This document shows, piece by piece, positions 6,641 to 25,693 of a stretch of DNA of 27,542 bases. This stretch comes from a virus. Position 1 is the first letter of the stretch; every line of letters starts with the position of its first letter. The translations under genes and the position numbers were made by a program. The notes beneath the pieces are model-generated. The model was not told the origin of the DNA. It saw only the letters and a program-made list of their open reading frames with translations, and made no database searches. The DNA lies in the IMG/VR virus record IMGVR_UViG_3300025101_000138, positions 1 through 27,542 of that record; one strand, written 5' to 3'.

Positions 6641-6877
6641 CTAACCCTTTCTCATTTCTAATAACGTATCTGCCGTAATTACGGCGTCGAGGTGCGTTAT
6701 CATTTCGTTCATGGCTCGCAATATTGCGTGAGCCTCTTCTCTGCGCTCAATTTCTTCAGCGCTACTTGTTGCAAAAACCTCTTTTTGGTTTTCGCGAACC
6801 TCTTGCAGTAAAAGCTTAAACGTATCGTCATTCATCAATCGCTTAGCGTCTTCAGCTCTTATCTTACTGTTGTCCAT
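6641..6877 (-). CDS. Small helical phage protein between portal and scaffold, 78 aa
   Basis: The protein appears all-helical: AKRLMNDDTFKLLLQEVREN, then EEIERREEAHAILRAMNEM, ending in a short helix. I know similar small proteins encoded between portal and scaffold in short-tailed marine phages, but no function. It overlaps the end of the portal gene by 14 bp and its stop lies four bases before the scaffold start, so the three are probably translated together. A helper role in procapsid assembly is an inference from position. Confidence 0.7.
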   Translation of the reverse strand: MDNSKIRAEDAKRLMNDDTFKLLLQEVRENQKEVFATSSAEEIERREEAHAILRAMNEMITHLDAVITADTLLEMRKG

Positions 6878-8936
6878 TGTTCATTCCTTGTTGTGCAATG
6901 CCGGCAACGGTACGCATTTTATCTTGTTCTGCTTTTATAGCCGCCACGTCCACTGTAGCGCCGTACTGACCGGCAATCTTAGCTGCGTTGACCATCAGGT
7001 CCTGAGCCATCTTATCGCGCTCACGGTCGTCGTCAGCGGCTGCTTTAGTTGCGTCTAACTGAAGCTTAGCCATGTCTGTGCTTACTTTAGCTTGTGCTTT
7101 TATTTGTTCCGCTTGGAGATATGCAGCGTTCGGATCTTGCTGTTGTTGCGCCATTGCCTGTTGTTGCTGTTGTTGCAGGGCAAGCATTTGCTGCTCAATC
7201 TCCTGGTTGATTGGCGCAAAGTATCTGTCGCTGTTTCTTACTCCGTTGACGGCCAGAATATCCGCCAGAGTGTTTCTAATGTTTGTCAGGCTCACTAAAC
7301 CATTTTGTGCGCCGTAGTTCGCATATACTTGCATTTGCAACTGTAGGGCTTGTGTCAGCGCCGCTACGCGCTCATCTTCGCGCCCAGTTCCCAGTCCGAC
7401 ATTGATGCTAACGTCGTAGCTTGTATCCCAAACCCTGGGATCTACCGGAACGTAAACACCGTTAAGTTTCATAAGCTTTTCTTCGTCAATGTTTTTATGT
7501 GCCAACTCAAGCATCAATTTAAATAAATCTTTGAAGCCTTCAGCTAAGTTTCTGCACATGACTTCGACCTGGCCGGCAGCCGCTTCGACCGCCGCTGTTA
7601 CTGCCGATTTTGTTGTGGACTGGAGGGCGTCTGGATTTAATGCGATATTCTGTGTCACGCCACTTTTAGCCTCGACCATTTTATCCAAATAGGTGAGGGC
7701 GTTTAATGTTTGGCCGGCAACGAACGGAATTGCTAAATTTTGGACCGCACCTGGATCAGTCATTCTGATTAGTCCGCCCACCTCATTGTTGAGAAGATCC
7801 TCTACAGAAACTTTTCCGCTGACGAAGCCCATCCTGGGTGAGTTTGTCAAAGCCACATTATCCAGTATTCCGCGAAGCACTGAGGTCGCCGCATCTTGGT
7901 CATCGCATAAAATCTCAGCTAAACTGCGTCCGTAAAACGTGTGCGGCTCCGGATCTATTTCAAGTTTGACTAAAGGAACATGATCGCAGGGCTCGTAGTC
8001 CAACAATTTATAACCTGTTCCGCCACAGATTAATTTATGAAGGACAGGCACTCCAGTGCCGTCAGCGTCAATCCTCATATATGCTTCACTGATTAAAACG
8101 TTCTTCATTGAAGGATCTAAAGCGTTGTCGTCTTCTCCTTCGTCGTTGTAGCCCTGGCGTTGGTAAACTTCTTCCTGGGTAATAGCCGTATCACTATCGT
8201 AACTATCAAGTTCGTAAATTACTTCCGGATCAAAGCCCATAGCCACCACGTCGCCAGCCCTCATTTCAGTACGGTGGCAAACCACATAAGCATCTTCTAT
8301 GCTTTTAGCTTCACGATTAATAAAAAATTCTTCACTAGGTACAGCCTCAATGCAGAGCTCGCCTTTCATTTCTTGGCGGCTAATTTTGAGATCATAATAA
8401 GGCGCTTCTTGTGAGCTTTTCATTACTGACTTTTGACTTAAAACTGTGACTTCTGGATCGTCTACTAATAAAGTCAGTTCCTCCGCCGTCAGATCGGTAA
8501 ACGTGTAAATTTTAGCTTTCGGATATGTTTTGTAATACGCTTTCGCTATTCCTTGTTTTTTAACCAGGGCATCGTGTATTAAATCTGAAAGTATTTTATA
8601 GCCGTTTAGCCTTTGAAATTCGTGATGGATAAAATTTGTAGCCTGCTCAGCCATTGCCACATCTTCCGGACCCCTAGGCACAAATTCAACTGGTTTGTCA
8701 GTACTCATAAAGACCCTCAAAATAGAGGGTTTGGTCGCCTTAATCGTATCACGAACTTTTGTGCTTACTACTTTACTCCGACCCTCTTCATGGCCCAGGT
8801 CCGTTAAGCCTTCCATGTAGCGCATACTCTTTAGGCGCTCCTGGCTTATCTCTTGCTCGACAAAATCGACAGCGTCCTTGATTGCTTGGGAAACAATGTT
8901 TTCTACTTCGTCGAATGTTTTTTCTTTTAATTCCAT
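6864..8936 (-). CDS. Portal protein, P22-like, 690 aa
   Basis: The portal is the dodecameric ring at one capsid vertex that passes DNA. The N-terminal section (RYMEGLTDLGHEEGRSKVVS, then VRDTIKATKPSILRVF and VEFVPRGPEDVAMAEQATNF) fits the P22-type portal pattern of GRS-VV, P-L and V-F-P blocks. The length is near that of P22 gp1. A Gln-rich stretch at about 588-601 precedes a long helical C-terminus, comparable to the P22 barrel, ending in MNNGQQ. AAGGA six bases upstream supports the ATG. It is followed by the 78-aa gene and the scaffold. The assignment is firm at family level, less so for the exact subfamily. Confidence 0.9.
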   Translation of the reverse strand: MELKEKTFDEVENIVSQAIKDAVDFVEQEISQERLKSMRYMEGLTDLGHEEGRSKVVSTKVRDTIKATKPSILRVFMSTDKPVEFVPRGPEDVAMAEQATNFIHHEFQRLNGYKILSDLIHDALVKKQGIAKAYYKTYPKAKIYTFTDLTAEELTLLVDDPEVTVLSQKSVMKSSQEAPYYDLKISRQEMKGELCIEAVPSEEFFINREAKSIEDAYVVCHRTEMRAGDVVAMGFDPEVIYELDSYDSDTAITQEEVYQRQGYNDEGEDDNALDPSMKNVLISEAYMRIDADGTGVPVLHKLICGGTGYKLLDYEPCDHVPLVKLEIDPEPHTFYGRSLAEILCDDQDAATSVLRGILDNVALTNSPRMGFVSGKVSVEDLLNNEVGGLIRMTDPGAVQNLAIPFVAGQTLNALTYLDKMVEAKSGVTQNIALNPDALQSTTKSAVTAAVEAAAGQVEVMCRNLAEGFKDLFKLMLELAHKNIDEEKLMKLNGVYVPVDPRVWDTSYDVSINVGLGTGREDERVAALTQALQLQMQVYANYGAQNGLVSLTNIRNTLADILAVNGVRNSDRYFAPINQEIEQQMLALQQQQQQAMAQQQQDPNAAYLQAEQIKAQAKVSTDMAKLQLDATKAAADDDRERDKMAQDLMVNAAKIAGQYGATVDVAAIKAEQDKMRTVAGIAQQGMNNGQQ

Positions 8937-15075: not shown

Positions 15076-15392
15076 ATTGCGGTGCTTCCATCATAACTTG
15101 CGGTACAAACGTAAATATAATTTTGGTCCCAGGCGATCATTCCTGGCTTATTTCCTGGCGCTCCAGTGCTTGATGACGGCGTCGCCTGTTTCATTGCCAC
15201 TTGCCTAAATTGATTTTGAGAACTGACAACAGGGTAATTGTTTTCGTCATCCCATAGAAAAACACCATTTTCGGAAGGATTGTCGTCACTTGTTTTGAAA
15301 AATAGTTTGCCTAAATTTCTCGACAAATAAACATTAAGCTGGCGACCCCATTGCCTGAGGTCTGGTCCTAATACTGGTAAGTTTACTGGCAT
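15045..15392 (-). CDS. Small tail-associated protein, 115 aa
   Basis: The N-terminal part is helical (GPDLRQWGRQLNVYLSRNLG). The C-terminal half is a beta region with the block NKPGMIAWDQNYIYVCTASY followed by DGSTAIWKRVAL, which recurs in many phage tail and fibre proteins. It starts at a TAATG junction with the end of the nozzle gene, whose last codons contain the GGAGG binding site. It overlaps the GNAT-like gene by 31 bp. It probably binds the nozzle or is a tail-tip part; this is inferred from neighbours. Confidence 0.7.
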   Translation of the reverse strand: MPVNLPVLGPDLRQWGRQLNVYLSRNLGKLFFKTSDDNPSENGVFLWDDENNYPVVSSQNQFRQVAMKQATPSSSTGAPGNKPGMIAWDQNYIYVCTASYDGSTAIWKRVALTTF

Positions 15393-18300
15393 TATCTGCG
15401 TCCTCCAGGTTTAGCCTCTAGGCGCATAACTCCCACACGCCAATCCGCTGGCTGGTCACCAGTGACGCGCATTCGAAGTTGTCTACCGGTAAACCTCAAA
15501 GAAGTAGGGTTGGAGGGATTAAAAGGACCGTAGGTCCGCTCAGTGTCGTTCGGATGAAACCTCGTTTTAAACGACATTTTAACATCGCCTTGCGTTTTTT
15601 CATCTGGAATTACTGAATTTATCTTCAACATTGTATCACCGTTGCTCAACGAAATGGGACCGGTTTCAGCGAATTGCGATTGACCGTCATAATTAAGTCC
15701 GACTTCATGTTGATAGATTATTGATTTTTCTAAGATGTTAGCTTTTTGGCCCATTTGTGAATGTGAGGAGCAGAAAAAATAGAGGGTAGGGGTATACTCT
15801 CCAATTAATATTTCTGTGTAACTGCCAGCCGTTCCAGGAGTTCCAACCTTAGTCACCCCAGTAGTATATTCTACACCTCCACCCCAAACGCCGTCTGGTT
15901 GAGCTGAGAACCGAAGAGGGTGGCCATCATTCGAAATGTCGTCCTGCTTAAACCGGTAAGTATTACCTTTAATCAAATCAATTGACGGTGCAGAACCACT
16001 GTAAGTTGAAATGTAGAATTTATTTCCGTTATCGGCTGCCACTGTTACATCATATTCGACAGTCTTTGTTTCTTGGCCAGCAAGGAATGGGTATGCAAAA
16101 ACACCGCGACTAACTCCCGCAGTTCTTGACAAATCACCAATAAGCCAGTGTTTTTCTCTATAATCATACGCCACATATCGATTTATTTCTAATGAGCTTT
16201 CAGAGCAATAAAACCACCAAACTTCGTTATTTGGACCATTGGCAAAAGCCCAGACTTTAGATTGTTGAGCGCTATTGAAATCACCAAAAACGTAGTCGTG
16301 CACATCGCAAGGAAGAACTTGGACGCTGTTGCCATCAAAGTAGAAAAAGTTTTCTTGACCCATCCAAAAAGCACCCTGGTCGGTTGCAATTGCAGAAAGC
16401 CTTGAAATAGCCCCCGAGTGCGTCGATATCCTTTGAAAGGAATACACATACGGGGGACCAACGTATACCGCGAGGTGACTATCTGTGTCTGTTAGTATAA
16501 GAGTTCCAGCTCTGGTCCTGATCCCTTGCATGATTTGTCCGGCTGTTTGTAATTCAATATCGCCAGCCTCATTTGTTACTGCCGGCGTCCAGTCGTTAAT
16601 ATTTTCTTTATCACACCAACTAACGCGCCTAGCATTCCCCCCAGCTCCCAGCGCAAAAATAAATCTTTCCTCAGTCACTAACTGACTTTTGTTGTTTATA
16701 GGTGCGTTAGTAATGGGTTCGATAACAGTTTTTTGTTTTAAGGTAACATTATCAATATAAAAATTTGGAGTGTTGTAAGCGCCAGGAATAATTTCTAATT
16801 TTGCTGCGACGTCATCTGTTCCAAAACGAAAAGTATTTTTTCCGATAAATAAATTTTGATTAACAAATTCTGTCGTGCTTGTAGTGCCCACCAGTTTGAG
16901 TGAAGCCACTGGCACAGTAGAAGAATTGTTGTCGTGATCTAGATCAACTATTGTTACCTCTAAATCAAAACTGTCTTGATCATCTCCAATGTTGTGCGTG
17001 AATGTGTGCGTTGTTCCTAAATTTAAAGTTAGTATATGCGCTGAACCAATATCTTGTCTAAATATATGATCAGTTCCAACGCCAACGCCCGTAATATCGA
17101 TGGCCGATCCCCCAGAAGTTTCGGAAAGCTGAAACTCAGTGCTAGACGAATTTATTATAAAATAGTTAGAGCCTGAAATTAAACCAGCTATATCGGTCCC
17201 ACCATTATTGGAATAAACAACTTCCTCACCGTCAGAAAAAGTATTAGCTGTTATAATCTTGTCTAGTGACGCATCCACAACGGCCGTATCAGCGCTATCA
17301 ATGGTAACTGAATTATTATCATTTAAAGTTATTGGCGTTCCGCCAGAAGTTGATGCTAATTGAAATTCAGAACCTGTTGCATTTACGATAAAATAATTAT
17401 TCCCATCAACAAGACCATTTATTGAAACGCCGCCGCCTATACTATAAATAACCTGGCTGTTGTTAGAGAATGTATTTGTTGCAACAATCTTGTCGTTAGT
17501 AGTGTCTACAATAACCGAGCTATCTGCATCAAATGTAAGACTTAACGGCGCTGTCAAATCTATTGCAGTACCACCAGAAGTCGCAGCCAGTTTAAAATTT
17601 GACGAATTATTTTCAATTACAAAATAATCTGTTTCATTGATCAAACCGCCTATGGAAACGCCATTGCCGTTTGAATATCTTACCTTTGTATTTGCGGCAA
17701 AAGTGTTAGCCACTACAATTTGATCAGTAGAAGTATCAACTATTGAGCTGTTGTTTGCATCAACAGTTACCGCGTTTGTGTTAGGAAGCAATCCAGTTAT
17801 AGTTTGATCTAAATTACCAAAATTTATTCTTTCGAGCTCGTGATTATCACCAACATCAACACGAAATTTATGAGCTGACCCAATATCTAAATCAAAAGTA
17901 TGCGTTGTGCCTATGACTTGCGTAAAACTGTGATTAGTTCCAGCTCCTAAAGCTGTAAGCGCAATAGCTGCGCCACCTGACGTTGCGCTAAGTTGAAATT
18001 CTGTGCCCGTCGCGTTGACAATGAAAAAATTTGTTAAGTTAGTTAAGCCAGTAATGTCAGTCCCGTTGCCGTTAAAATAATTAACCTCTTCTCCATTAAC
18101 AAAAGTGTTTGCTGCTACAATTTTATCATTTACCAGGTCGACTACTGCCGCGTCACTGCCGTTTACAGTAACCGCCTTGGGCGCTGTCAAATTTATAGCT
18201 GCGCCACCTGACGTTGCAGCAACTTGAAATGTATCGGCTGTTGAAGAAACTACAAAGTAATCAGTAGCATCCACCAATCCGTTAATGTCAGTTCCAGTGC

Positions 18301-19813
18301 CGCTTGAATACTTTATTTCGTTGCCATCGCTTAAACCATGCGCTGTCGAAGTTATGGTTTCTGTAGCAAAATCGATAGTTTGGGCATTGTCGATTGTTGT
18401 TATAGCATTTCCCATCAATGCGCCATGCACGGTGCATTGGTATGTCAGGTTTGCAGGGGCGTTTGCTGGGACTGCAAAAGTAATATTAGCGCCTGGCTGG
18501 CCAATTGTTCCATTAAGGGCAACTCCTGTTGTGTAGGCTGTGCCTCCGTCAAAAATCCCTAGTGGATGGCCGTTATTGCTAGCGTCACTAACATCAAAAG
18601 TATACGTCTGCCCTCTAACTAACTGAAGCGTTGGCTTTTCTGCACCATCTAATGCAAAAATATTAGCGCCAGCTACGTTCACGACTGTCACCGCATAATT
18701 TAATGGGCCAACTACTGTATTATTTGGATCTATGGTTGTTGTGGGATCTACGCCTAGATCTATTGCTGCACCACCCGAAGTTGCTGAAACCTGGAATTCT
18801 GAGCTCGTTGCATTGACGATAAAATAGTTAGCGTCATTGGTTAAATTAGTAATAGACGTGCCGCCGCCATTTTCGTAGGTTACATAATCGCCATTAGAAA
18901 ATGTATTAGCTGTTATAATCTTATTATTGGCTACATCTTTAATTGTTTCGTCATCAGCGTCAAAAATAACTTCATTGTTAGGCGTGATATTAATAGCTGC
19001 GCCGCCAGAAGTAGCCGACAATTGGAAGGTGTTTGCTGTAGCAGAAATGATAAAATAATTGGTGGCATCTGTTAGACCGCCAAGAGCTGTAGCAGGGGAG
19101 GCTGGCACGTTATAGGTAATCTCATCGCCGTCAGCAAAGTCATGTCCCGTTATTGTTATTGTATCGGTTGCCGGATCAACAATTGTTACATCGTCAGCAT
19201 CAAAAGTTGGCTTGTACTGTGCATACTTTGCATATTGATCAGTAGTTATTGACCAGTTAGTTCCTTTCGTCCAATCGCTGTCAGTAGCAAAGTCACCATT
19301 TGTAATTAGATCAGCTCCAATAGCCGTCGCCAGATCCCACAATAAAAGCCGCCCATCTGTAGTGCAAAGCATTGTTAACTTTTCGCCAAAGTTATCAAAA
19401 ATCCAAACTGTGCATTCTTCTGGGATACTGTCGCTCGTGACCGGCCTGGGCTGGCCGTAAGTAGCAGTCCCATAGTAATTAAATCCGTAGCCAGTAGAAA
19501 CGTTTGCATCAACACGACCAACGGGCAAATCATCAGGCGTAAGCTCGTAAGCAACACCAGCGCCTGTCATAACAACAATTGAATTTGCGCTGCCGCCTGC
19601 AACCCAAGCAGTTCCGCCGTTTGATTGCCAAGTGTGCATTCCTCGCACTGGATCTTTCGAAAATCCAAATTTTCTAACAGACCAACCTCCAACTGGACGC
19701 AAACTACCATCCATCCAGCGAACAAGAGATCCTTCTCGCCATCTTCCGCTTTGCTCAAGTTCTGTTCCGTTACGATAAAATCCGGCTGGTATGTCCAAAG
19801 GTAAAAGAGCCAT
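15392..19813 (-). CDS. P22 gp10-like tail stabilisation (nozzle) protein with nested repeat and cupredoxin-like insertions, 1473 aa
   Basis: The outer frame is a gp10-type tail protein: residues 1-165 (LDIPAGFYRNGTELEQSGRW, then GRLLLWDLATA), 1040-1245 (RVSWCDKENINDWTPA, YVGPPYVYSFQRIS, EVWWFYCSES, DRTAG-like turn) and 1363-1473, ending in KPGGRR. Inserted at about 166-1030 is an apparent carbohydrate-binding-like jelly roll split in two (LITNGDFATDSDW near 169; NFYIDNVTLKQ near 1017). Between its halves lie seven beta repeats of about 72 residues and cupredoxin-like domain 1 (371-476; His416, Cys460, His463, Met467). Domain 2 (1252-1362; His1298, Cys1348, His1351, Met1354) interrupts the end of the gp10 frame. 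Two ladders of His spaced by 10 follow repeats 4 and 7. Copper binding is not proven. Confidence 0.88.
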   Translation of the reverse strand: MALLPLDIPAGFYRNGTELEQSGRWREGSLVRWMDGSLRPVGGWSVRKFGFSKDPVRGMHTWQSNGGTAWVAGGSANSIVVMTGAGVAYELTPDDLPVGRVDANVSTGYGFNYYGTATYGQPRPVTSDSIPEECTVWIFDNFGEKLTMLCTTDGRLLLWDLATAIGADLITNGDFATDSDWTKGTNWSITTDQYAKYAQYKPTFDADDVTIVDPATDTITITGHDFADGDEITYNVPASPATALGGLTDATNYFIISATANTFQLSATSGGAAINITPNNEVIFDADDETIKDVANNKIITANTFSNGDYVTYENGGGTSITNLTNDANYFIVNATSSEFQVSATSGGAAIDLGVDPTTTIDPNNTVVGPLNYAVTVVNVAGANIFALDGAEKPTLQLVRGQTYTFDVSDASNNGHPLGIFDGGTAYTTGVALNGTIGQPGANITFAVPANAPANLTYQCTVHGALMGNAITTIDNAQTIDFATETITSTAHGLSDGNEIKYSSGTGTDINGLVDATDYFVVSSTADTFQVAATSGGAAINLTAPKAVTVNGSDAAVVDLVNDKIVAANTFVNGEEVNYFNGNGTDITGLTNLTNFFIVNATGTEFQLSATSGGAAIALTALGAGTNHSFTQVIGTTHTFDLDIGSAHKFRVDVGDNHELERINFGNLDQTITGLLPNTNAVTVDANNSSIVDTSTDQIVVANTFAANTKVRYSNGNGVSIGGLINETDYFVIENNSSNFKLAATSGGTAIDLTAPLSLTFDADSSVIVDTTNDKIVATNTFSNNSQVIYSIGGGVSINGLVDGNNYFIVNATGSEFQLASTSGGTPITLNDNNSVTIDSADTAVVDASLDKIITANTFSDGEEVVYSNNGGTDIAGLISGSNYFIINSSSTEFQLSETSGGSAIDITGVGVGTDHIFRQDIGSAHILTLNLGTTHTFTHNIGDDQDSFDLEVTIVDLDHDNNSSTVPVASLKLVGTTSTTEFVNQNLFIGKNTFRFGTDDVAAKLEIIPGAYNTPNFYIDNVTLKQKTVIEPITNAPINNKSQLVTEERFIFALGAGGNARRVSWCDKENINDWTPAVTNEAGDIELQTAGQIMQGIRTRAGTLILTDTDSHLAVYVGPPYVYSFQRISTHSGAISRLSAIATDQGAFWMGQENFFYFDGNSVQVLPCDVHDYVFGDFNSAQQSKVWAFANGPNNEVWWFYCSESSLEINRYVAYDYREKHWLIGDLSRTAGVSRGVFAYPFLAGQETKTVEYDVTVAADNGNKFYISTYSGSAPSIDLIKGNTYRFKQDDISNDGHPLRFSAQPDGVWGGGVEYTTGVTKVGTPGTAGSYTEILIGEYTPTLYFFCSSHSQMGQKANILEKSIIYQHEVGLNYDGQSQFAETGPISLSNGDTMLKINSVIPDEKTQGDVKMSFKTRFHPNDTERTYGPFNPSNPTSLRFTGRQLRMRVTGDQPADWRVGVMRLEAKPGGRR
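16970..19207 (-). repeat. Seven degenerate beta repeats plus His-decad ladders inside the nozzle gene
   Basis: Repeat starts are near residues 203, 284, 479, 550, 684, 761 and 838. Each has the pattern D-IVD-TD-I-ANTF-G-VYS-GG-I-GL-NYFIVNAT-EFQLSATSGGAAI-L. A cupredoxin-like domain sits between repeats 2 and 3. Decads with His at 628, 638, 648 and 658, and at 916, 926 and 936, follow repeats 4 and 7. Similar stretches are visible in the DNA as well, so the repeats probably arose by duplication. Confidence 0.9.
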
Positions 19814-20844
19814 TAGGTTGTTGCTCCAAACATTGTTCCGTTGTTTGTTAGTGTGTATGTATTCCCAGTGTCTTCAACGGCTTTGCCGCCTGCACCGCCA
19901 GAGCCATTAGTAGTGCGGCCATTAGCGCCGTTTCCTCCTGCCGCGCCCCAACCGCCGCCACCTGCACCAATTACTGTATCACCACTTCTTCGCCCATTAG
20001 TTCCATTTTGACCGCCTGCACCACCCGTTGCTATGTTTCCTGCTTGTGTAATAAATTGAACTGTTGGGTTACAATCAGCACCAGGCAGAATACGACCACC
20101 GCCGCCTGCTTTTCTACCGTACTGAGTGCCGCTACTATTTTCTGCACGATAACCACCAGTGCCGCCTGCTTGTGCTGTTTGTGATGTAACAGAGATAGAT
20201 TGAGCTGCTGCCGCGTTCAAAACAGCCCCAACATGACCAGTTGCTAAGTTTTGGTTACTAGTCCCTGCCGCATTGCCGCCATTTCCTCCGCCTGCGCCTC
20301 CCCCTCCTGGTCCTTTTGCCTGAGCATTAGCATTTGATGTGCCGCCACCGCCGCCACCGCCTGCTATAAATGCACCAGAGACATTTTCAATAGTAACACC
20401 ACTTACACCAGAGTTAATGCGAATTGCAGGGCCACCAGCGCCACCATTGTAACCTGAAGTTCCTGCGCCATTACCGCCCTTACCAATAATTTTACCATTA
20501 TTTATAATTGTGCATGGAATATCTATGGTCATTGCTGCCACTGAGGTACTATCTGACCAAATCCACCAACTTGCAGGAATACTTAAACTTCCGCCGCTGC
20601 TTATATAATCACTAACGGTAATTTGTTGCAGCGAGTTTTGGCCGTTTATAATAACAGGGGTAGCGATAGTTTCTATACCTACTAAACTTGCAGTTCCATA
20701 AAAATCGCTCAGTGATAAAGGGTTATTATTACCAGGTATACCAGCGGCCGCAGCATAATATTCGCTTAAACTTGTAGGTGCAGAACCACCAAATTCAGTT
20801 TCGATTTGGCTCAGTGATATTGCTCCGCTAGATTGTAGTGCCAT
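19813..20844 (-). CDS. Glycine-rich tail adhesin with MALQ-SG-ISL N-terminal module, 343 aa
   Basis: Residues 1-52 form a module (MALQSSGAISLSQIETEF, then NPLSLSDFYG) that also occurs in the fibre encoded at 23181-23849. Residues about 117-320 are built of polyglycine tracts (AGGGGGGG at 161-168, GPGGGGAGGGNGGN) separated by short variable segments. This composition is typical of polyglycine-helix bundle adhesins, such as the Salmonella phage S16 gp38 type, where loops between glycine helices bind the receptor. It lies directly before the nozzle gene with a TAATG overlap. A role in receptor binding is inferred from composition and position. Confidence 0.75.
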   Translation of the reverse strand: MALQSSGAISLSQIETEFGGSAPTSLSEYYAAAAGIPGNNNPLSLSDFYGTASLVGIETIATPVIINGQNSLQQITVSDYISSGGSLSIPASWWIWSDSTSVAAMTIDIPCTIINNGKIIGKGGNGAGTSGYNGGAGGPAIRINSGVSGVTIENVSGAFIAGGGGGGGTSNANAQAKGPGGGGAGGGNGGNAAGTSNQNLATGHVGAVLNAAAAQSISVTSQTAQAGGTGGYRAENSSGTQYGRKAGGGGRILPGADCNPTVQFITQAGNIATGGAGGQNGTNGRRSGDTVIGAGGGGWGAAGGNGANGRTTNGSGGAGGKAVEDTGNTYTLTNNGTMFGATT

Positions 20845-21200: not shown

Positions 21201-22112
21201 TTAGGTGCTTTCACTCCAAATATCTGTGTTGTCTACCGTAGTTTCATCGAATGAAGGAGCGCTTGGAGCTGGCGCATTTGTAAATGTTTCTTGTGGTATT
21301 TCGGGCGTGTCAGTCCAAATCGAAGGAGTAACACTCACTTCATTGTATATTTCATCTAAAGGTAAACTTATTTGAAACGGGAAAGCACCCAACCCAACAC
21401 TAGGCAACCCAAAGGTAATATCACTAGATGCGAAATTTATTTGTACTGTGACTGAGGTTACATCGACTGTTGGCTGGGGAAAGCTTAACTCAGTAGCAGT
21501 CAACGCATAATTTTGCGTTACTGTTGTAGTGTCTATTGTTGGTATACCTAAACTTATATCAGGAGCGCTCAGATGAACGACAATTGATGCAGTAAGCGTA
21601 TTTATTTCAGGATTTCCGCTTGTTATATCTGAAGCTGCAAAATCATAATTTATTGTGGTATTTGCTGTAGGAATATCCGGCGCACCAGTAATCAAATCTT
21701 CAGATGAAAAAATTCTATCTTGGCTGAATACGGCCGCGTCTATTCTTACTGTACCCGTAAGAACATTAGGCGCACTAAAATTTTCGTCCTCAACCATTTG
21801 GACATTTGGAACTGTAATGCCATTTCCATTGTAGACGCCTGCAAGATCGTGAACTTGAGTAATTGTTGCAGCATCAACAATAGGCGCACCCATCGTCAAA
21901 TCTGGGGCTACAACAGGGGTACTTGCAGTAAGTGCCGTTGTGTCAATCACTGGATTGCCAGCCGTTACATCATCACCAGCCAAAAGCTTGTTAACAACCA
22001 TAACAGTGCTATCAATTGTTGGGTTAGCTGTAGAAACGCTTACTGGAATAATAACATCAGAGCCGCCAACATCAGATATTGGAGATCCTGATATGGGTTG
22101 AAAACCTAACAC
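21201..22112 (-). CDS. Beta-repeat tail protein, 303 aa
   Basis: About eight copies of a roughly 22-residue beta unit occur, with the pattern F-A-DIT-G-P-IDT-T-T (for example LLAGDDVTAGNPVIDTTAL, FAASDITSGNPEIN, LSAPDISLGIPTIDTTT, FASSDITFGLPSV). Units of this type are seen in marine phage virion proteins and probably form an elongated beta structure. The end is Pro/Thr/Glu-rich (PEIPQETFTNAPAPSAPSFD). The start is a GTG overlapping the preceding TAG by one base; the binding site is weak, so translation is probably coupled. It is a likely fibre shaft or decoration protein, inferred from repeats and neighbours. Confidence 0.75.
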   Translation of the reverse strand: MLGFQPISGSPISDVGGSDVIIPVSVSTANPTIDSTVMVVNKLLAGDDVTAGNPVIDTTALTASTPVVAPDLTMGAPIVDAATITQVHDLAGVYNGNGITVPNVQMVEDENFSAPNVLTGTVRIDAAVFSQDRIFSSEDLITGAPDIPTANTTINYDFAASDITSGNPEINTLTASIVVHLSAPDISLGIPTIDTTTVTQNYALTATELSFPQPTVDVTSVTVQINFASSDITFGLPSVGLGAFPFQISLPLDEIYNEVSVTPSIWTDTPEIPQETFTNAPAPSAPSFDETTVDNTDIWSEST

Positions 22113-22654
22113 TATCTTTTCTCGTAACCAAAATGCTCAAAGTCATCGTGGAAAATTTCGTTAATAATCCAAATGTTTTGATCAGTTAAAATATGATTGT
22201 CGTGATCTGCTGCGTTTACAACATCGCCAAGAGTTAAACCATGATCGCTAAAAGCCTGTTCTAGCTCAGTTTCTAATTTATAATATCTAACTGGGCGATC
22301 ACTTTCGATATGCTTTTTTTGGGTATCGCGCATATCATAAAGAAGTGTTTTCATATTTAAAAATTGTTCGAAAGTTGAGCAATTTTCTTCACCATACAAG
22401 TCTCTGGCTCTGTTGTAACAATCTTGAATTCTGTCGTATGGATTTCTTACAATTGCCCAAACTTCAGCATCTTCAGCAACGTGGTTTTCCCAATGTTGAA
22501 ACCGAGACAAATAAGACATAGGACCATATTCTTTTTCTTGAAAAATTGGATGAACATGGCTTTCAGAACCGCCGCGATCAACGTAGGCTTCTTTAACTGC
22601 AAACCCGGCACAACGCGGAACATGAATAAAAGCCCAATCAGGAGTTATAATCAT
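22112..22654 (-). CDS. Small sulfotransferase-like protein, 180 aa
   Basis: Sulfotransferases move sulfate from PAPS to sugars or proteins. Residues 9-17 (FIHVPRCAG) match the 5'-phosphosulfate-binding loop of the Sulfotransfer_2 type (FIHIPKxGGT). Residues 69-75 (VRNPYDR) match the 3'-phosphate-binding motif RNPYxR. Residues 124-135 (YYKLETELEQAF) and the end (DDFEHFGY, 170-177) also fit the family. The loop has Arg where Lys is usual, and the protein is shorter than most members. The ATG at 22654 forms an ATGA overlap with the upstream gene and is preferred to the GTG at 22666. It is embedded among fibre genes; the substrate is unknown. Confidence 0.75.
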   Translation of the reverse strand: MIITPDWAFIHVPRCAGFAVKEAYVDRGGSESHVHPIFQEKEYGPMSYLSRFQHWENHVAEDAEVWAIVRNPYDRIQDCYNRARDLYGEENCSTFEQFLNMKTLLYDMRDTQKKHIESDRPVRYYKLETELEQAFSDHGLTLGDVVNAADHDNHILTDQNIWIINEIFHDDFEHFGYEKR

Positions 22655-23184
22655 TCCGGCACCCACTTCATACTCATAGTTGAATATGGATTTCCTATTT
22701 TAAAATTTACTGGATAGCGCAAACTTCTAGAAATTATTTTTAAAGCCTTCCAGACAGTGCCGCCTTGGTCAGTCTCGCAAACATATTCGTCGCAACCATG
22801 CGCTTTAATAAAGCTCATCAAATCATCCCACAATTTAGGATCTACAACTAAAGGAGAATTTGAAGCAGCTCTTTTTCCTGAAAGAAATGTGTTAGTAATA
22901 AATTTTTCGTTTTCTTTTCTGCCAACAGCGTAACCAACAGGAACTGCAACAACTTCATTATGTTTTTCGTAAATTTCTATAAAGCAACCAGACTTATTTT
23001 TTTGTAAGTCAAATTCTTCTTTATAAATTTTTTCCCATAATTTTTTATTATCTAACGGTGATTGAATTTTTTCAGCATATCTATTTTTTTCTAAATATTG
23101 ATTTGCAACGTTAAAACTATAATCAAATACTTTGTTGAAAATGTTTTGATTAAACGTGTTTGTTATGGTGGCAAAATAAGTCAT
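22651..23184 (-). CDS. AT-rich unknown protein in the fibre cluster, 177 aa
   Basis: The ATG at 23184 overlaps the TGA of the upstream fibre gene (ATGA), so it is preferred to a start at 23208. The protein is Asn/Lys/Phe-rich at the N-terminus (ATITNTFNQNIFNKVFDYSF). The middle has strand-like segments (SGCFIEIYEKHNEVVAVPVG, YAVGRKENEKFITNTFL) and a later helix (DPKLWDDLMSFIKAHGCDEY), ending STMSMKWVPE. The layout vaguely recalls a GNAT-type acyltransferase, but no acetyl-CoA loop is convincing. A hand count at 22981-23100 gives 26 G+C of 120, far below neighbours, suggesting recent transfer. Function unknown. Confidence 0.65.
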   Translation of the reverse strand: MTYFATITNTFNQNIFNKVFDYSFNVANQYLEKNRYAEKIQSPLDNKKLWEKIYKEEFDLQKNKSGCFIEIYEKHNEVVAVPVGYAVGRKENEKFITNTFLSGKRAASNSPLVVDPKLWDDLMSFIKAHGCDEYVCETDQGGTVWKALKIISRSLRYPVNFKIGNPYSTMSMKWVPE

Positions 23185-23849
23185 ATTGAATAATATTCCA
23201 ATGTCCACAAACTCAGTGTTTGCCTATTGTTAACTAAATTTGCATTTGCAGTACCATTTGCACCGGTTGTTAATAGACTTGTGTCATTGGCCGTGTAGTA
23301 GCGAGTTGGAGAGATTTGTACTCCATTGTAAAGCTCATTTGTTGGACCAATAACTGCAACACCATTATATTTTGCAATAAAATAATTATCAGCTACGTTA
23401 GGCTTTCTAAAATTGTAACTGCCACTTACAGCAAGAGCGCCTAAAGTGCCGTTAAATCCTTGAGCAAGTACAGTGACACCTTCGCGATATCCTGCACTAA
23501 CACTGTTTTTTAAAACATTAAAATCTCTAATTATAAAACCTTCAACATTAGGATCTGTTATAAAATCTTGAGAGGCTGTTATAGCTGTACTGCTTTTAAA
23601 ACTAACATACCCGGCCGAAGCGTTTTTGCCTGTTGTTGTTGGTGCTATTTGTGTAGCTGACATAGTATATTTGAGGGAAGGTCCACCGCTTGCACCGTAC
23701 CACTCATCAAAACCCATTTGCGTTGCGCTAGTTTTACTAATTAAATTTAAAATATCAGTGTCGTTGATGCCAGCTTGCGTGGCAGTTGTACCACCAGCTT
23801 CAACGTGAATGTCATCTAAAGAAATAGGGCCGCTAGTTTGTAACGCCAT
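23181..23849 (-). CDS. Fibre-type protein with MALQ-SG-ISL module, 222 aa
   Basis: The frame opens at a TTG, but the ATG two codons on (23849) yields MALQTSGPISLDDIHVEAGG, matching the start of the polyglycine adhesin, so I use it. The module ends near residue 52 (FDEWYGASGG), comparable to SDFYG in the other protein. The rest is beta-rich without recognised motifs (SLKYTMSATQIAPTTTG, FIIRDFNVLKN, ending LWTLEYYSI). It overlaps the S74 fibre gene by 17 bp upstream and the AT-rich gene by ATGA downstream. It is probably a small tail fibre or a docking protein. Confidence 0.7.
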   Translation of the reverse strand: MALQTSGPISLDDIHVEAGGTTATQAGINDTDILNLISKTSATQMGFDEWYGASGGPSLKYTMSATQIAPTTTGKNASAGYVSFKSSTAITASQDFITDPNVEGFIIRDFNVLKNSVSAGYREGVTVLAQGFNGTLGALAVSGSYNFRKPNVADNYFIAKYNGVAVIGPTNELYNGVQISPTRYYTANDTSLLTTGANGTANANLVNNRQTLSLWTLEYYSI

Positions 23850-24687
23850 TTTCAAGCTTCTCTATTTTATCTGATAAGTCTTTAATAGCCTCGATAAGCA
23901 ACGGAACTAATTTGTCATAATAAACCGTTAGATATTCATCGCTGATCGGTGCTTGGGTTACAACTTCTGGCAATACGGCTTGCACCTCTTGGGCTGATAC
24001 GCCAACTTGCATGTCACTGTTTGCATATCCTAAAGATTTTGCAGTTTCGTTTTCAGTAAAATAGTAACCATTTAAGTTTTTTATTTTACTCAATGCGTCT
24101 TCAATATGCCCGTGAAAATGTTTTAAACGCTCATCCGAATAATAGGCAGTAACGTTATTTGTTGCTCGTATCTCGCCAGTTGTCCCACTAGCAGGGGTGC
24201 CAACTCCAAAACTACCTAATTCAACACTGCTCGATGTAGTTGCTATTAAAGCACCGGCTGCCGCTACATTTGTTGCATCAGTAACATCAGCATTAGCCTC
24301 TATACCGTCTAGCTTTGCTCCGTCAGTTGCTAGGTCACGCCCGTCTACTGTTCCGGCAACGGCAACATTATTAGAGCTATCTTCAAAAACAACTTTTCCG
24401 GCTGGCATTGTGCAGAAAATATCTTTATCTCCAGCGCTCCAATTTACAGCCGCACCAGAGTTTGTACTATCTAAAATTGTTGTCCTGGATAGGGTCGTTC
24501 CGCTAGCTGTATAAGTTCCGATCCCAACCTCGTAATCAGTCCCATCAGTACAACAATAATAAGTGTCGTTTCCGTCACCAATATTTGCAAAAGATTGAAA
24601 GCCAGTTTTTGCCCCAGCTAAAGTAAAGGTTCCCGTGCCAGTTGTTGTAGTGGTTTCCTGGACGCGGTCATCAACGACAGTTGCCAT
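23833..24687 (-). CDS. Tail fibre with C-terminal S74 intramolecular chaperone, 284 aa
   Basis: S74 domains help trimeric fibres fold and then cut themselves off. The motif SDERLK at 184-189 gives the expected Ser184/Lys189 dyad, followed by IEDALSKIKNLNGYYF and MQVGVSAQEVQAVLPEVV, typical of the family. The release site would be just before Ser184, leaving a mature fibre of about 183 residues. The N-terminal 1-97 is a beta domain common in phage tails (TFTLAGAKTGFQSF, LSRTTILDSTN, then FCTMPAGK). The linker contains DGAKLDGIEANADVTDATNV, a shaft-like motif. A coiled coil ends the chaperone. GGAGA upstream supports the ATG. Confidence 0.88.
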   Translation of the reverse strand: MATVVDDRVQETTTTTGTGTFTLAGAKTGFQSFANIGDGNDTYYCCTDGTDYEVGIGTYTASGTTLSRTTILDSTNSGAAVNWSAGDKDIFCTMPAGKVVFEDSSNNVAVAGTVDGRDLATDGAKLDGIEANADVTDATNVAAAGALIATTSSSVELGSFGVGTPASGTTGEIRATNNVTAYYSDERLKHFHGHIEDALSKIKNLNGYYFTENETAKSLGYANSDMQVGVSAQEVQAVLPEVVTQAPISDEYLTVYYDKLVPLLIEAIKDLSDKIEKLENGVTN

Positions 24688-25072: not shown

Positions 25073-25693
25073 TTAATAACTCCTTATTTTCATGCGACGG
25101 CCGGAGCCGCCATGCTTCGCTAATTCATTTTCATTGTTGAGGGTTTCTACCGCCGACGCATAATAAGACGCCCAAACGCCTACGCGCTCATCCTCCATAA
25201 GATACGGAGCTGATTGTAACAGAGTAGAATATAAATAAAGATCGGGATAATAAGTGATAACCCAATTTGTTGCGTTAGAAGAATTTAAACCGTCTATAGA
25301 TCCGTAATACAAAAGCTCTAAATTGTAAGCTGCTGAAGGGGTAGGGAATACCTCTATAGCGCCATCAACTATTGCGTAATAAGATGGCTCACCAGAAGAA
25401 TTTAAGGCTTCCGATCTAAAACCTCCGATTTCATTATTACCGGCTAACTCTAGTATTTTTGTATCCGCCGTATTTAACGTTAACCTAATCGGCGCAATAA
25501 AATCAGAAGGTAAAGAGGTGAACTGAGTATCTAATGTTGCAGTCACTCTTTTTTCCATGCGCCAATGCCGAATATCTCTATTCATCCTGGCTTCAGCTAA
25601 ACGGATAAAAGTTGGAATGACCGTTGTTAAGTCATCACGATTAAGAAAATTTGCTATTTCAGTTTGTAGCTCTGTGAAATTTGCCAGGGTCAT
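25073..25693 (-). CDS. Head-to-tail adaptor, P22 gp4-like, 206 aa
   Basis: The N-terminal helical part (FTELQTEIANFLNRDDLTTV, then IPTFIRLAEARMNRDIR) is the recognisable pattern of phage adaptor proteins that attach under the portal. It continues with a beta section (VTATLDTQFTSLPSDFIAPI) and closes with helices (YYPDLYLYSTLLQSAPYL, DERVGVWASYYASAVETL). The length fits P22 gp4-type adaptors. It overlaps the upstream gene by ATGA, with GAGAGGG as binding site. Unlike P22 it is not near the portal gene but about 16 kb upstream of it in the transcript. Confidence 0.75.
   Translation of the reverse strand: MTLANFTELQTEIANFLNRDDLTTVIPTFIRLAEARMNRDIRHWRMEKRVTATLDTQFTSLPSDFIAPIRLTLNTADTKILELAGNNEIGGFRSEALNSSGEPSYYAIVDGAIEVFPTPSAAYNLELLYYGSIDGLNSSNATNWVITYYPDLYLYSTLLQSAPYLMEDERVGVWASYYASAVETLNNENELAKHGGSGRRMKIRSY

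Follow-up and report, generated by a model that had tools for sequence, protein, structure and literature searches.

Nested jelly-roll and cupredoxin-like insertions in a predicted podophage nozzle protein

In phage SU10, the nozzle protein gp17 contains four immunoglobulin-like (Ig) domains that are inserted between propeller blades and form the tail tip; upon attachment these domains straighten to generate a 28-nm nozzle, and the short fibres dock to a loop at blade 1 (PMC9509320). In T7, the fibre dock links the end of the propeller to the platform on the outer surface. In the phicrAss001 muzzle protein, blade 3 houses the domain IG2, which two insertions split in turn; most of the distal domain, thought to contact the cell, is formed by one of these (PMC10172136). 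Here we describe a gene with nested insertions in the IMG/VR virus record IMGVR_UViG_3300025101_000138, whose entire analysed stretch of 27,542 nucleotides is referred to as the window. The gene (15392-19813, minus strand) starts with ATG and encodes 1,473 residues with zero internal stops. Its product is likely the nozzle of a short-tailed marine phage with a tail of the SU10/P22 type, with a nested jelly-roll and inner cassettes at one insertion site (site 1), a cupredoxin-like domain at a second (site 2) and inserts that would form a decorated collar. Its parts are listed below from the N- to the C-terminus, with residue numbers in brackets, where bare relatives are homologues without inserts, handles such as L010 denote individual relatives and E is the expectation value (iE, independent E), with model confidence expressed as predicted local distance difference test (pLDDT).

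19322..19813, minus strand: N part of the nozzle core (1-164) with the N half of the platform, the initial blades of the propeller and three strands of the blade opened by site 1; runs on into the remaining core in bare relatives of ~490-500 amino acids, and assigned from Foldseek of the L010 model
19421..19522, minus strand: GYG-rich loop (~98-131), empty in the window; from hhalign to SU10 gp17 in collinear pieces, with pLDDT <50 at L010 residues 104-131
19211..19321, minus strand: jelly-roll piece 1 (165-201, NGDFATDSDWTKGTNW...); matches the start of the undivided L109 jelly-roll, profile iE 9.8e-17
18983..19186, minus strand: repeat 1 (210-277); this and all further repeats from iterated profile search and alignment
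18755..18946, minus strand: repeat 2 (290-353)
18395..18697, minus strand: cupredoxin-like domain 1 (373-473), among the repeats inside the jelly-roll, with His and Cys-x2-His-x3-Met kept; pLDDT 86-92, Foldseek to copper nitrite reductase and rusticyanin
18185..18382, minus strand: repeat 3 (478-543)
17954..18148, minus strand: repeat 4 (556-620)
17831..17932, minus strand: strip of ~10-residue 'GTTHTFDLDIGSAHKFRVDVG' units (628-661), from sequence and alignment, of low model confidence (pLDDT ~35 over residues 623-680)
17783..17830, minus strand: jelly-roll piece 2 (662-677, RINFGNLDQTITGLLP); aligns with L109 'TNLEQTVAGL' and L005 'RVNFGNLDQTVSGL', 5.8 bits alone, recurs in L103 and L105
17552..17746, minus strand: repeat 5 (690-754), in the second inner insertion
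17324..17512, minus strand: repeat 6 (768-830)
17090..17284, minus strand: repeat 7 (844-908)
16997..17080, minus strand: second strip, of 'IGSAHILTLNLGTTHTF' units (912-939), from sequence and alignment
16736..16996, minus strand: jelly-roll piece 3 (940-1026, ...NFYIDNVTLK); profile iE 2.5e-32, L109 jelly-roll E 1.5e-19
16058..16735, minus strand: C part of the nozzle core (1027-1252) with the remaining propeller blades; PHROG 3287, 9nwi_Y at E 2e-11 and core profile matches
15740..16054, minus strand: cupredoxin-like domain 2 (1254-1358), which fills site 2 where the end of the propeller meets the platform, with His and Cys-x2-His-x2-Met kept; from alignment, the site being empty (1-8 residues) in many relatives
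15395..15727, minus strand: C-terminal part of the nozzle core (1363-1473, ending KPGGRR) with the C half of the platform; from continuity in bare relatives, SU10 gp17 also ending in GGRR

The core of the protein, which comprises residues 1-164, 1027-1252 and 1363-1473, was delineated by comparison with natural relatives without inserts, which served as trimmed-chain control in place of an edited sequence. In these proteins, residue ~163 is joined straight to ~1028 and ~1252 straight to ~1363, and PHROG 3287 (virion structural protein) matches the flanks of the open reading frame (ORF) in three stretches, best at 1024-1250 with an E of 3.9e-66. Among solved structures, a profile of the bare relatives detects a Pseudomonas phage Pa223 tail protein (9nwi, 8.5e-26) and gp16, the nozzle protein of VP1 (8zkk, 1.6e-15), for neither of which our literature search found a dedicated paper. 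Pfam contains no nozzle or stabilisation family that matches the window protein or its bare relatives, and by strict sequence neither falls into a curated gp10-type family there. The fold was predicted for L010, a complete relative of 1,036 residues with both sites filled, from 68 sequences, and the resulting model has a mean pLDDT of 78.8, with values mostly of 85-92 in the core and the cupredoxins. Its Foldseek ranks 1-29 are occupied by phage tail or virion entries without exception, including SU10 gp17 (6.7e-20), Pa223 (2.6e-18), VP1 gp16 (6e-16), T7 gp12 (~1e-8) and P22 gp10 (8eap_D, 3e-8), besides proteins of cyanophage A4, P-SCSP1u, Sf6 (gp8) and phicrAss001. This model comparison identifies the ORF core as a predicted podophage nozzle, with a beta-propeller and a platform built from both ends of the chain, that belongs with the SU10/P22-type tail, and by analogy to its homologues it would assemble into a hexameric ring in the virion. 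The original prediction, made from the sequence of the window, that the flanks and the KPGGRR C-terminus constitute one gp10-type protein thus holds as a statement on fold, the nozzles of SU10, Pa223 and VP1 being nearer than P22 gp10. In the fold check it proposed, the model of the complete relative matches nozzles including P22 gp10, and a model of the window fragment does not display a confident closure of the jelly-roll.

This jelly-roll is found at site 1 in three pieces that probably make up a single domain, with its closure in the window suggested by the sequences of relatives. The segments 'NGDFATDSDW', which begins at residue 172, and 'NFYIDNVTLKQ', which begins at residue 1017, are assigned to one domain because relatives carry the jelly-roll undivided at the same site, which is the strongest evidence for this assignment. 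A one-protein search with the undivided L109 jelly-roll gives two matches in the window, at 165-288 (E 1.2e-7, convincing over no more than the first ~35 residues) and at 945-1025 (E 1.5e-19), and profiles from relatives with a single break match at 166-201 (iE 9.8e-17) and 940-1026 (iE 2.5e-32). The middle strand RINFGNLDQTITGL (662-677) is flanked by two separate inner insertions, with an equal break in L103 and L105. On its own, this piece is too short for a significant score, and it is regarded as a jelly-roll strand because it recurs at the same place in these two relatives. One-break relatives show the order piece 1, cassette and 'NFGNLDQTVSGLV-ATPDVQDSYDV...', and a second cassette, present in the window, L103 and L105, parts 'NFGNLDQTITGLLP' (to 677) from 'DDQDSFDLEV...' (944 on). 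The undivided L109 jelly-roll has no tblastn match in the phage collection. For the insert of the window, residues 160-1035 were modelled by AlphaFold from 21 sequences, which resulted in a mean pLDDT of 68.9 and a predicted template modelling score (pTM) of 0.30, with 86-92 for the cupredoxin.

Of the two cassettes that separate the jelly-roll pieces, the first carries cupredoxin 1 flanked by repeats 1-2 and 3-4, and the second carries repeats 5-7. No match to the repeat units, which measure ~65-70 residues, was found in the PDB (best E 0.07); as a side observation, this ~70-residue repeat also occurs in marine phage tail proteins (PHROG 4711, 9370, 7765). In light of this arrangement, the earlier proposal of a jelly-roll split into two halves was correct in joining the NGDF and NFYIDNV segments into one domain, which is undivided in L109/L110, L207, L210 and L211, and had missed the third piece; the two-piece version was replaced after alignment with the one-break relatives. 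Repeats and a cupredoxin-like domain were found between the halves as proposed, and so was the terminal cupredoxin-like domain, with copper nitrite reductase (6.5e-5) and rusticyanin (~5e-4) leading the Foldseek results of the window fragment.

The successive stages of this architecture are found in natural relatives. Scans with both flanks recovered 104 distinct relatives with a complete frame, including 68 distinct core sequences of the close family. Within the latter, site 1 is bare in 43 cases, holds an undivided jelly-roll of 130 residues in 2 and a jelly-roll split by cupredoxin and/or repeats in 23, and site 2 is filled in 35 and empty in 33. The length of site 1 (between residues 164 and 1027) accordingly ranges from 0-8 residues in bare forms (such as L119 and L020) and 130 in L109/L110 to 419-624 in one-break forms (419-450, ~510, 624) and to 858 (the window), 960 and 1,038 in the two-break forms, which are the window, L103 and L105. 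Site 2 (1253-1362) measures either 1-8 or ~110-131 residues, and all four combinations of the two sites occur. An undivided jelly-roll at site 1 is also present in distant lineages, in L207 from an Aureimonas pseudogalii chromosome and in L210/L211 from contigs of marine metagenome-assembled genomes (MAGs). On a tree of the 68 core sequences, 2 changes are needed at site 1 and 7 at site 2; a single clade of genes with site 2 filled is rejected (p 1e-43); for the jelly-roll, the test does not reject one origin (p 0.34). Site 2 has been filled and emptied repeatedly. The same insertion hot spots emerged from a second, independent sample of genome contigs: site 1, the area of site 2 and the loop used in SU10, where distant relatives hold 117-320 residues. 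Near-identical genes exchange their inner cassettes, which move separately from the core: L090 and L004 share 99-100% identity in the outer jelly-roll, 90-94% in the core and 52% in the inner part, the latter being 81% identical between L090 and L010, and L003 differs from L004 mainly by one whole extra cupredoxin.

The family contains further places of insertion. Besides their undivided jelly-roll, L109/L110 carry an extra short insertion (KLTKSAVLAFNAAGAPIDYGTENDEIE) within the C-terminal platform part, and L209 (an ORF of 1,075 residues) contains ~500 extra residues near the last blade (~439-973), which, by eye, read like two LamG-type lectin domains. The nozzle genes of L177 and L178, both with a full insertion, are located on small contigs binned in MAGs labelled Flavobacteriaceae and Euryarchaeota and are probably mis-binned viral contigs.

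A further feature of the inserts concerns the ligands of their cupredoxin-like domains. These domains were gathered via the nozzle flanks and hence blind to their own ligand motif. His, Cys, His and Met are invariant in 26 of 26 aligned domains, with a spacing of Cys-x2-His-x2-Met or Cys-x2-His-x3-Met, and the four ligands are kept in all 65 nozzle and tail-fibre cupredoxins of the tree set; L153 loses a proline beside the ligand histidine and keeps the histidine itself. The 8 invariant columns among the 107 profile positions include all four expected type-1 copper ligands, for which simple counting that ignores relatedness gives a chance of 70/5,160,610, or ~1e-5. Pfam Copper-bind is detected in 5 of the 26 members (best E 0.0028), the first cupredoxin of the window not being among them, and the similarity in sequence to plastocyanin (1b3i) is marginal at E 0.19. 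In PHROGs, the domain is known only within tail-fibre, baseplate and other virion proteins, and our literature search found no description of a cupredoxin in connection with tail fiber or cyanophage; this copper-type domain, common to marine phage tails, has apparently been undescribed so far. The domains fall into two groups separated by a 100/99 split, one combining all site-1 domains with the site-2 domains of the L021 group (Cys-x2-His-x3-Met), the other combining the remaining site-2 domains with those of cyanophage and pelagiphage tail fibres (Cys-x2-His-x2-Met), and site 2 has therefore been filled from two sources. Near its nozzle gene, L021 contains an ORF of 345 residues (plus strand, frame 0, from codon 1385) with its own site-1-type cupredoxin amid 'NDI.TGTPVVD' repeats, which is a possible local source of the domain.

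Our proposal for the build-up of the protein starts from the conserved core of propeller and platform, which would gate the DNA channel and whose loops on the outer or distal face would accept inserted domains while leaving the ring intact. A jelly-roll of the carbohydrate-binding type would have entered a propeller blade behind its third strand (site 1), and the jelly-roll's own loops would then have taken up cupredoxin and ~70-residue beta repeats, one loop first and, in the window phage and its nearest kin, a second loop as well. Site 2, where T7 and SU10 have their fibre dock, would have gained another cupredoxin. By analogy to described tails, the inserts of the subunits might serve display and surface binding as a decorated collar round the tail tip that touches the host, with the jelly-roll binding to glycans and the cupredoxin making contacts that depend on a metal or are stabilised by one, and the collar may rearrange on attachment, like the inserted domains of SU10. 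Since the inserts lie outside the ring-forming core, the decoration can vary fast while the ring remains constant.

Several points weigh against this proposal. In the model of the window insert, the pLDDT is ~50 at jelly-roll piece 1 and ~35 around piece 2 (fragment 464-521, equivalent to residues 623-680), and because this model neither proves nor refutes closure of the domain, closure in the window rests on the relatives. Pfam gives zero matches to a carbohydrate-binding module (CBM) for L109, and the CBM structures 8xmz and 2y6j appear in the Foldseek results of the window insert only at E ~0.01, with the query region unreported; a carbohydrate-binding (CBM4/9-like) type of the jelly-roll is suggested by likeness of fold only. 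The face on which each insertion site would lie is proposed from strand order and published descriptions. An entirely different concern, that fused ORFs or a chimeric contig have created the nesting, could be raised for any metagenomic virus record such as the present one; however, another IMG/VR contig (L002/L082) contains a frame of identical length with both flanks 100% identical, hence the one open frame of 1,473 residues is present in two contigs, and since the nested layout is shared by many independent contigs (L103, L105, L003, L005, L010), we reject an artefact of assembly or frame, the chance of which appears vanishingly small.

A further question is what the inserts do. Instead of binding to the host, they could mainly extend or support the nozzle while DNA is delivered, a role exemplified by the inserted Ig domains of SU10 gp17, which straighten into the 28-nm nozzle (PMC9509320), and one that would suit seven repeats in series, which look like a spacer. 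We consider this rather unlikely, since the SU10 domains occupy a neighbouring loop by sequence order, the insert is wholly missing in many near relatives and the inner cassettes are swapped quickly, as expected of parts that determine host range rather than of mechanical ones. A decorated ring is in our view favoured because the insertion hot spots recur and the loops of SU10 and T7 at those places carry inserts or the fibre dock. A related issue is whether copper or some other metal is bound by the cupredoxin-like domains, in the service of host recognition or virion stability. The invariant ligands with their copper-type spacing, the structural matches to copper proteins and the occasional recognition by Copper-bind all point in this direction; in contrast, the evidence from curated copper families is marginal in sequence, the Cys/His/Met set could be retained for folding or bind another metal, and the comparable case of iron in marine phage tail fibres, where iron-binding His motifs have been proposed, is itself largely hypothesis (PMC11705849). 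We thus treat metal binding as a tentative possibility. Bolder still, and in our opinion improbable, would be a scenario in which nozzle rings of marine podophages carry metal-loaded cupredoxins (in the window two per subunit and twelve per virion if hexameric, one of them at the fibre-dock position), whose metal site is used for recognition of the host surface or for triggering, the nozzle being a plug-in board of plug-in boards that recombines host-range cassettes.

The genomic setting is that of a morphogenesis module of a short-tailed phage. In addition to the nozzle, the window (27.5 kb) encodes portal, adaptor and major capsid proteins of the SU10 type (SU10_portal, SU10_adaptor, SU10_MCP), a scaffold, a cell-wall hydrolase and a DNA-ejection protein, and the location of the nozzle gene in a module with adaptor and portal places it among podophage nozzle proteins on gene context.

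6864..8936, minus strand: SU10-type portal protein gene, in the tail module with the nozzle; PF23899, E 1.7e-177
25073..25693, minus strand: SU10-type adaptor protein gene, in the tail module with the nozzle; PF24175, E 8.7e-33

Directly upstream of the nozzle gene and overlapping with it is a gene of 343 residues (19813-20844, minus strand), whose product has a glycine-rich C-terminal half (GGNGAGTSGYNGGAGG...) and matches a GP38 tail-fibre adhesin weakly (E 0.0053) as well as PHROG 2056, a host-specificity fibre; we regard it as a candidate adhesin on the basis of its sequence. The window further encodes a fibre-tip protein of 284 residues with a Peptidase_S74 intramolecular chaperone domain (23833-24687, minus strand, E 1.5e-10) and, within the tail module, a protein of 184 residues with a weak PHROG match to galactose-3-O-sulfotransferase (22112-22666, minus strand, E 3e-6).

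As a rule, nested domain insertions can be observed only in their completed state. In this family, most of the steps live on in relatives, from the bare ring to the ring with a jelly-roll, the jelly-roll opened once and opened twice, with and without the terminal cupredoxin, and the order of assembly and the tolerance of the loops are therefore testable. The nozzle, normally viewed as a gate for DNA, is in this family marked as a fast-changing display part.

Collectively, the comparison with known systems defines both what the protein shares and what is particular to it. The closest homologue of its core in a cultured phage, gp13 of Octadecabacter Antarctic DB virus 2 (MW805364), shows ~49% identity over three pieces and a syntenic tail module, but is bare, with 492 residues and both sites empty. 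SU10 gp17 (Kuravirus; 7z47, PMC9509320) is the best Foldseek match and shares the propeller, the split platform, domains inserted in the propeller, the C-terminal GGRR and neighbouring adaptor, portal and capsid genes, whereas its insert is a row of four Ig-like domains that separates two blades, one loop before site 1 when judged by sequence order, and contains neither a nested jelly-roll nor a cupredoxin. In hhalign, residues 65-97, 185-362 and 420-495 of L119 align with 73-104, 601-819 and 925-1005 of SU10, and this order places the Ig insert at the GYG-rich loop preceding site 1; an equivalence of site 1 with that loop was rejected, since the blade TWSLDNFGE...W lies between them. Site 2 is placed, from order only, in the interval of the SU10 dock loop, where hhalign is not significant. 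The cupredoxin-like domain recurs with the same ligands in tail-fibre and baseplate-connector proteins of cyanophages and pelagiphages (PHROG 30742, 677, 693), which differ in carrying it in a fibre or baseplate protein instead of the nozzle, and with rusticyanin, plastocyanin and copper nitrite reductase it shares the fold (by Foldseek) and the His/Cys/His/Met pattern, the similarity in sequence being marginal. The muzzle protein gp44 of phicrAss001 (7qol_P) shares a nested Ig domain in blade 3, another between blades 2 and 3 and variation in length in these regions, whereas its inserted folds are Ig and the 'crass fold' and the part of its description considered here gives no series of intermediates (PMC10172136). 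The sequence similarity of its muzzle to the window core is not significant, and alignment of site 1 to the IG1 or IG2 hairpin is too weak for an assignment. The original prediction had considered insertions of this depth unusual, which is not supported in view of the twofold split of IG2 in phicrAss001 (PMC10172136) and the four inserted Ig domains of SU10 gp17 (PMC9509320). The depth of nesting thus has precedent, and the novelty lies in which folds are inserted, in a series of intermediates that still exist, in the exchange of inner cassettes and in cupredoxins with a complete set of ligands, one of them at the position of the dock.

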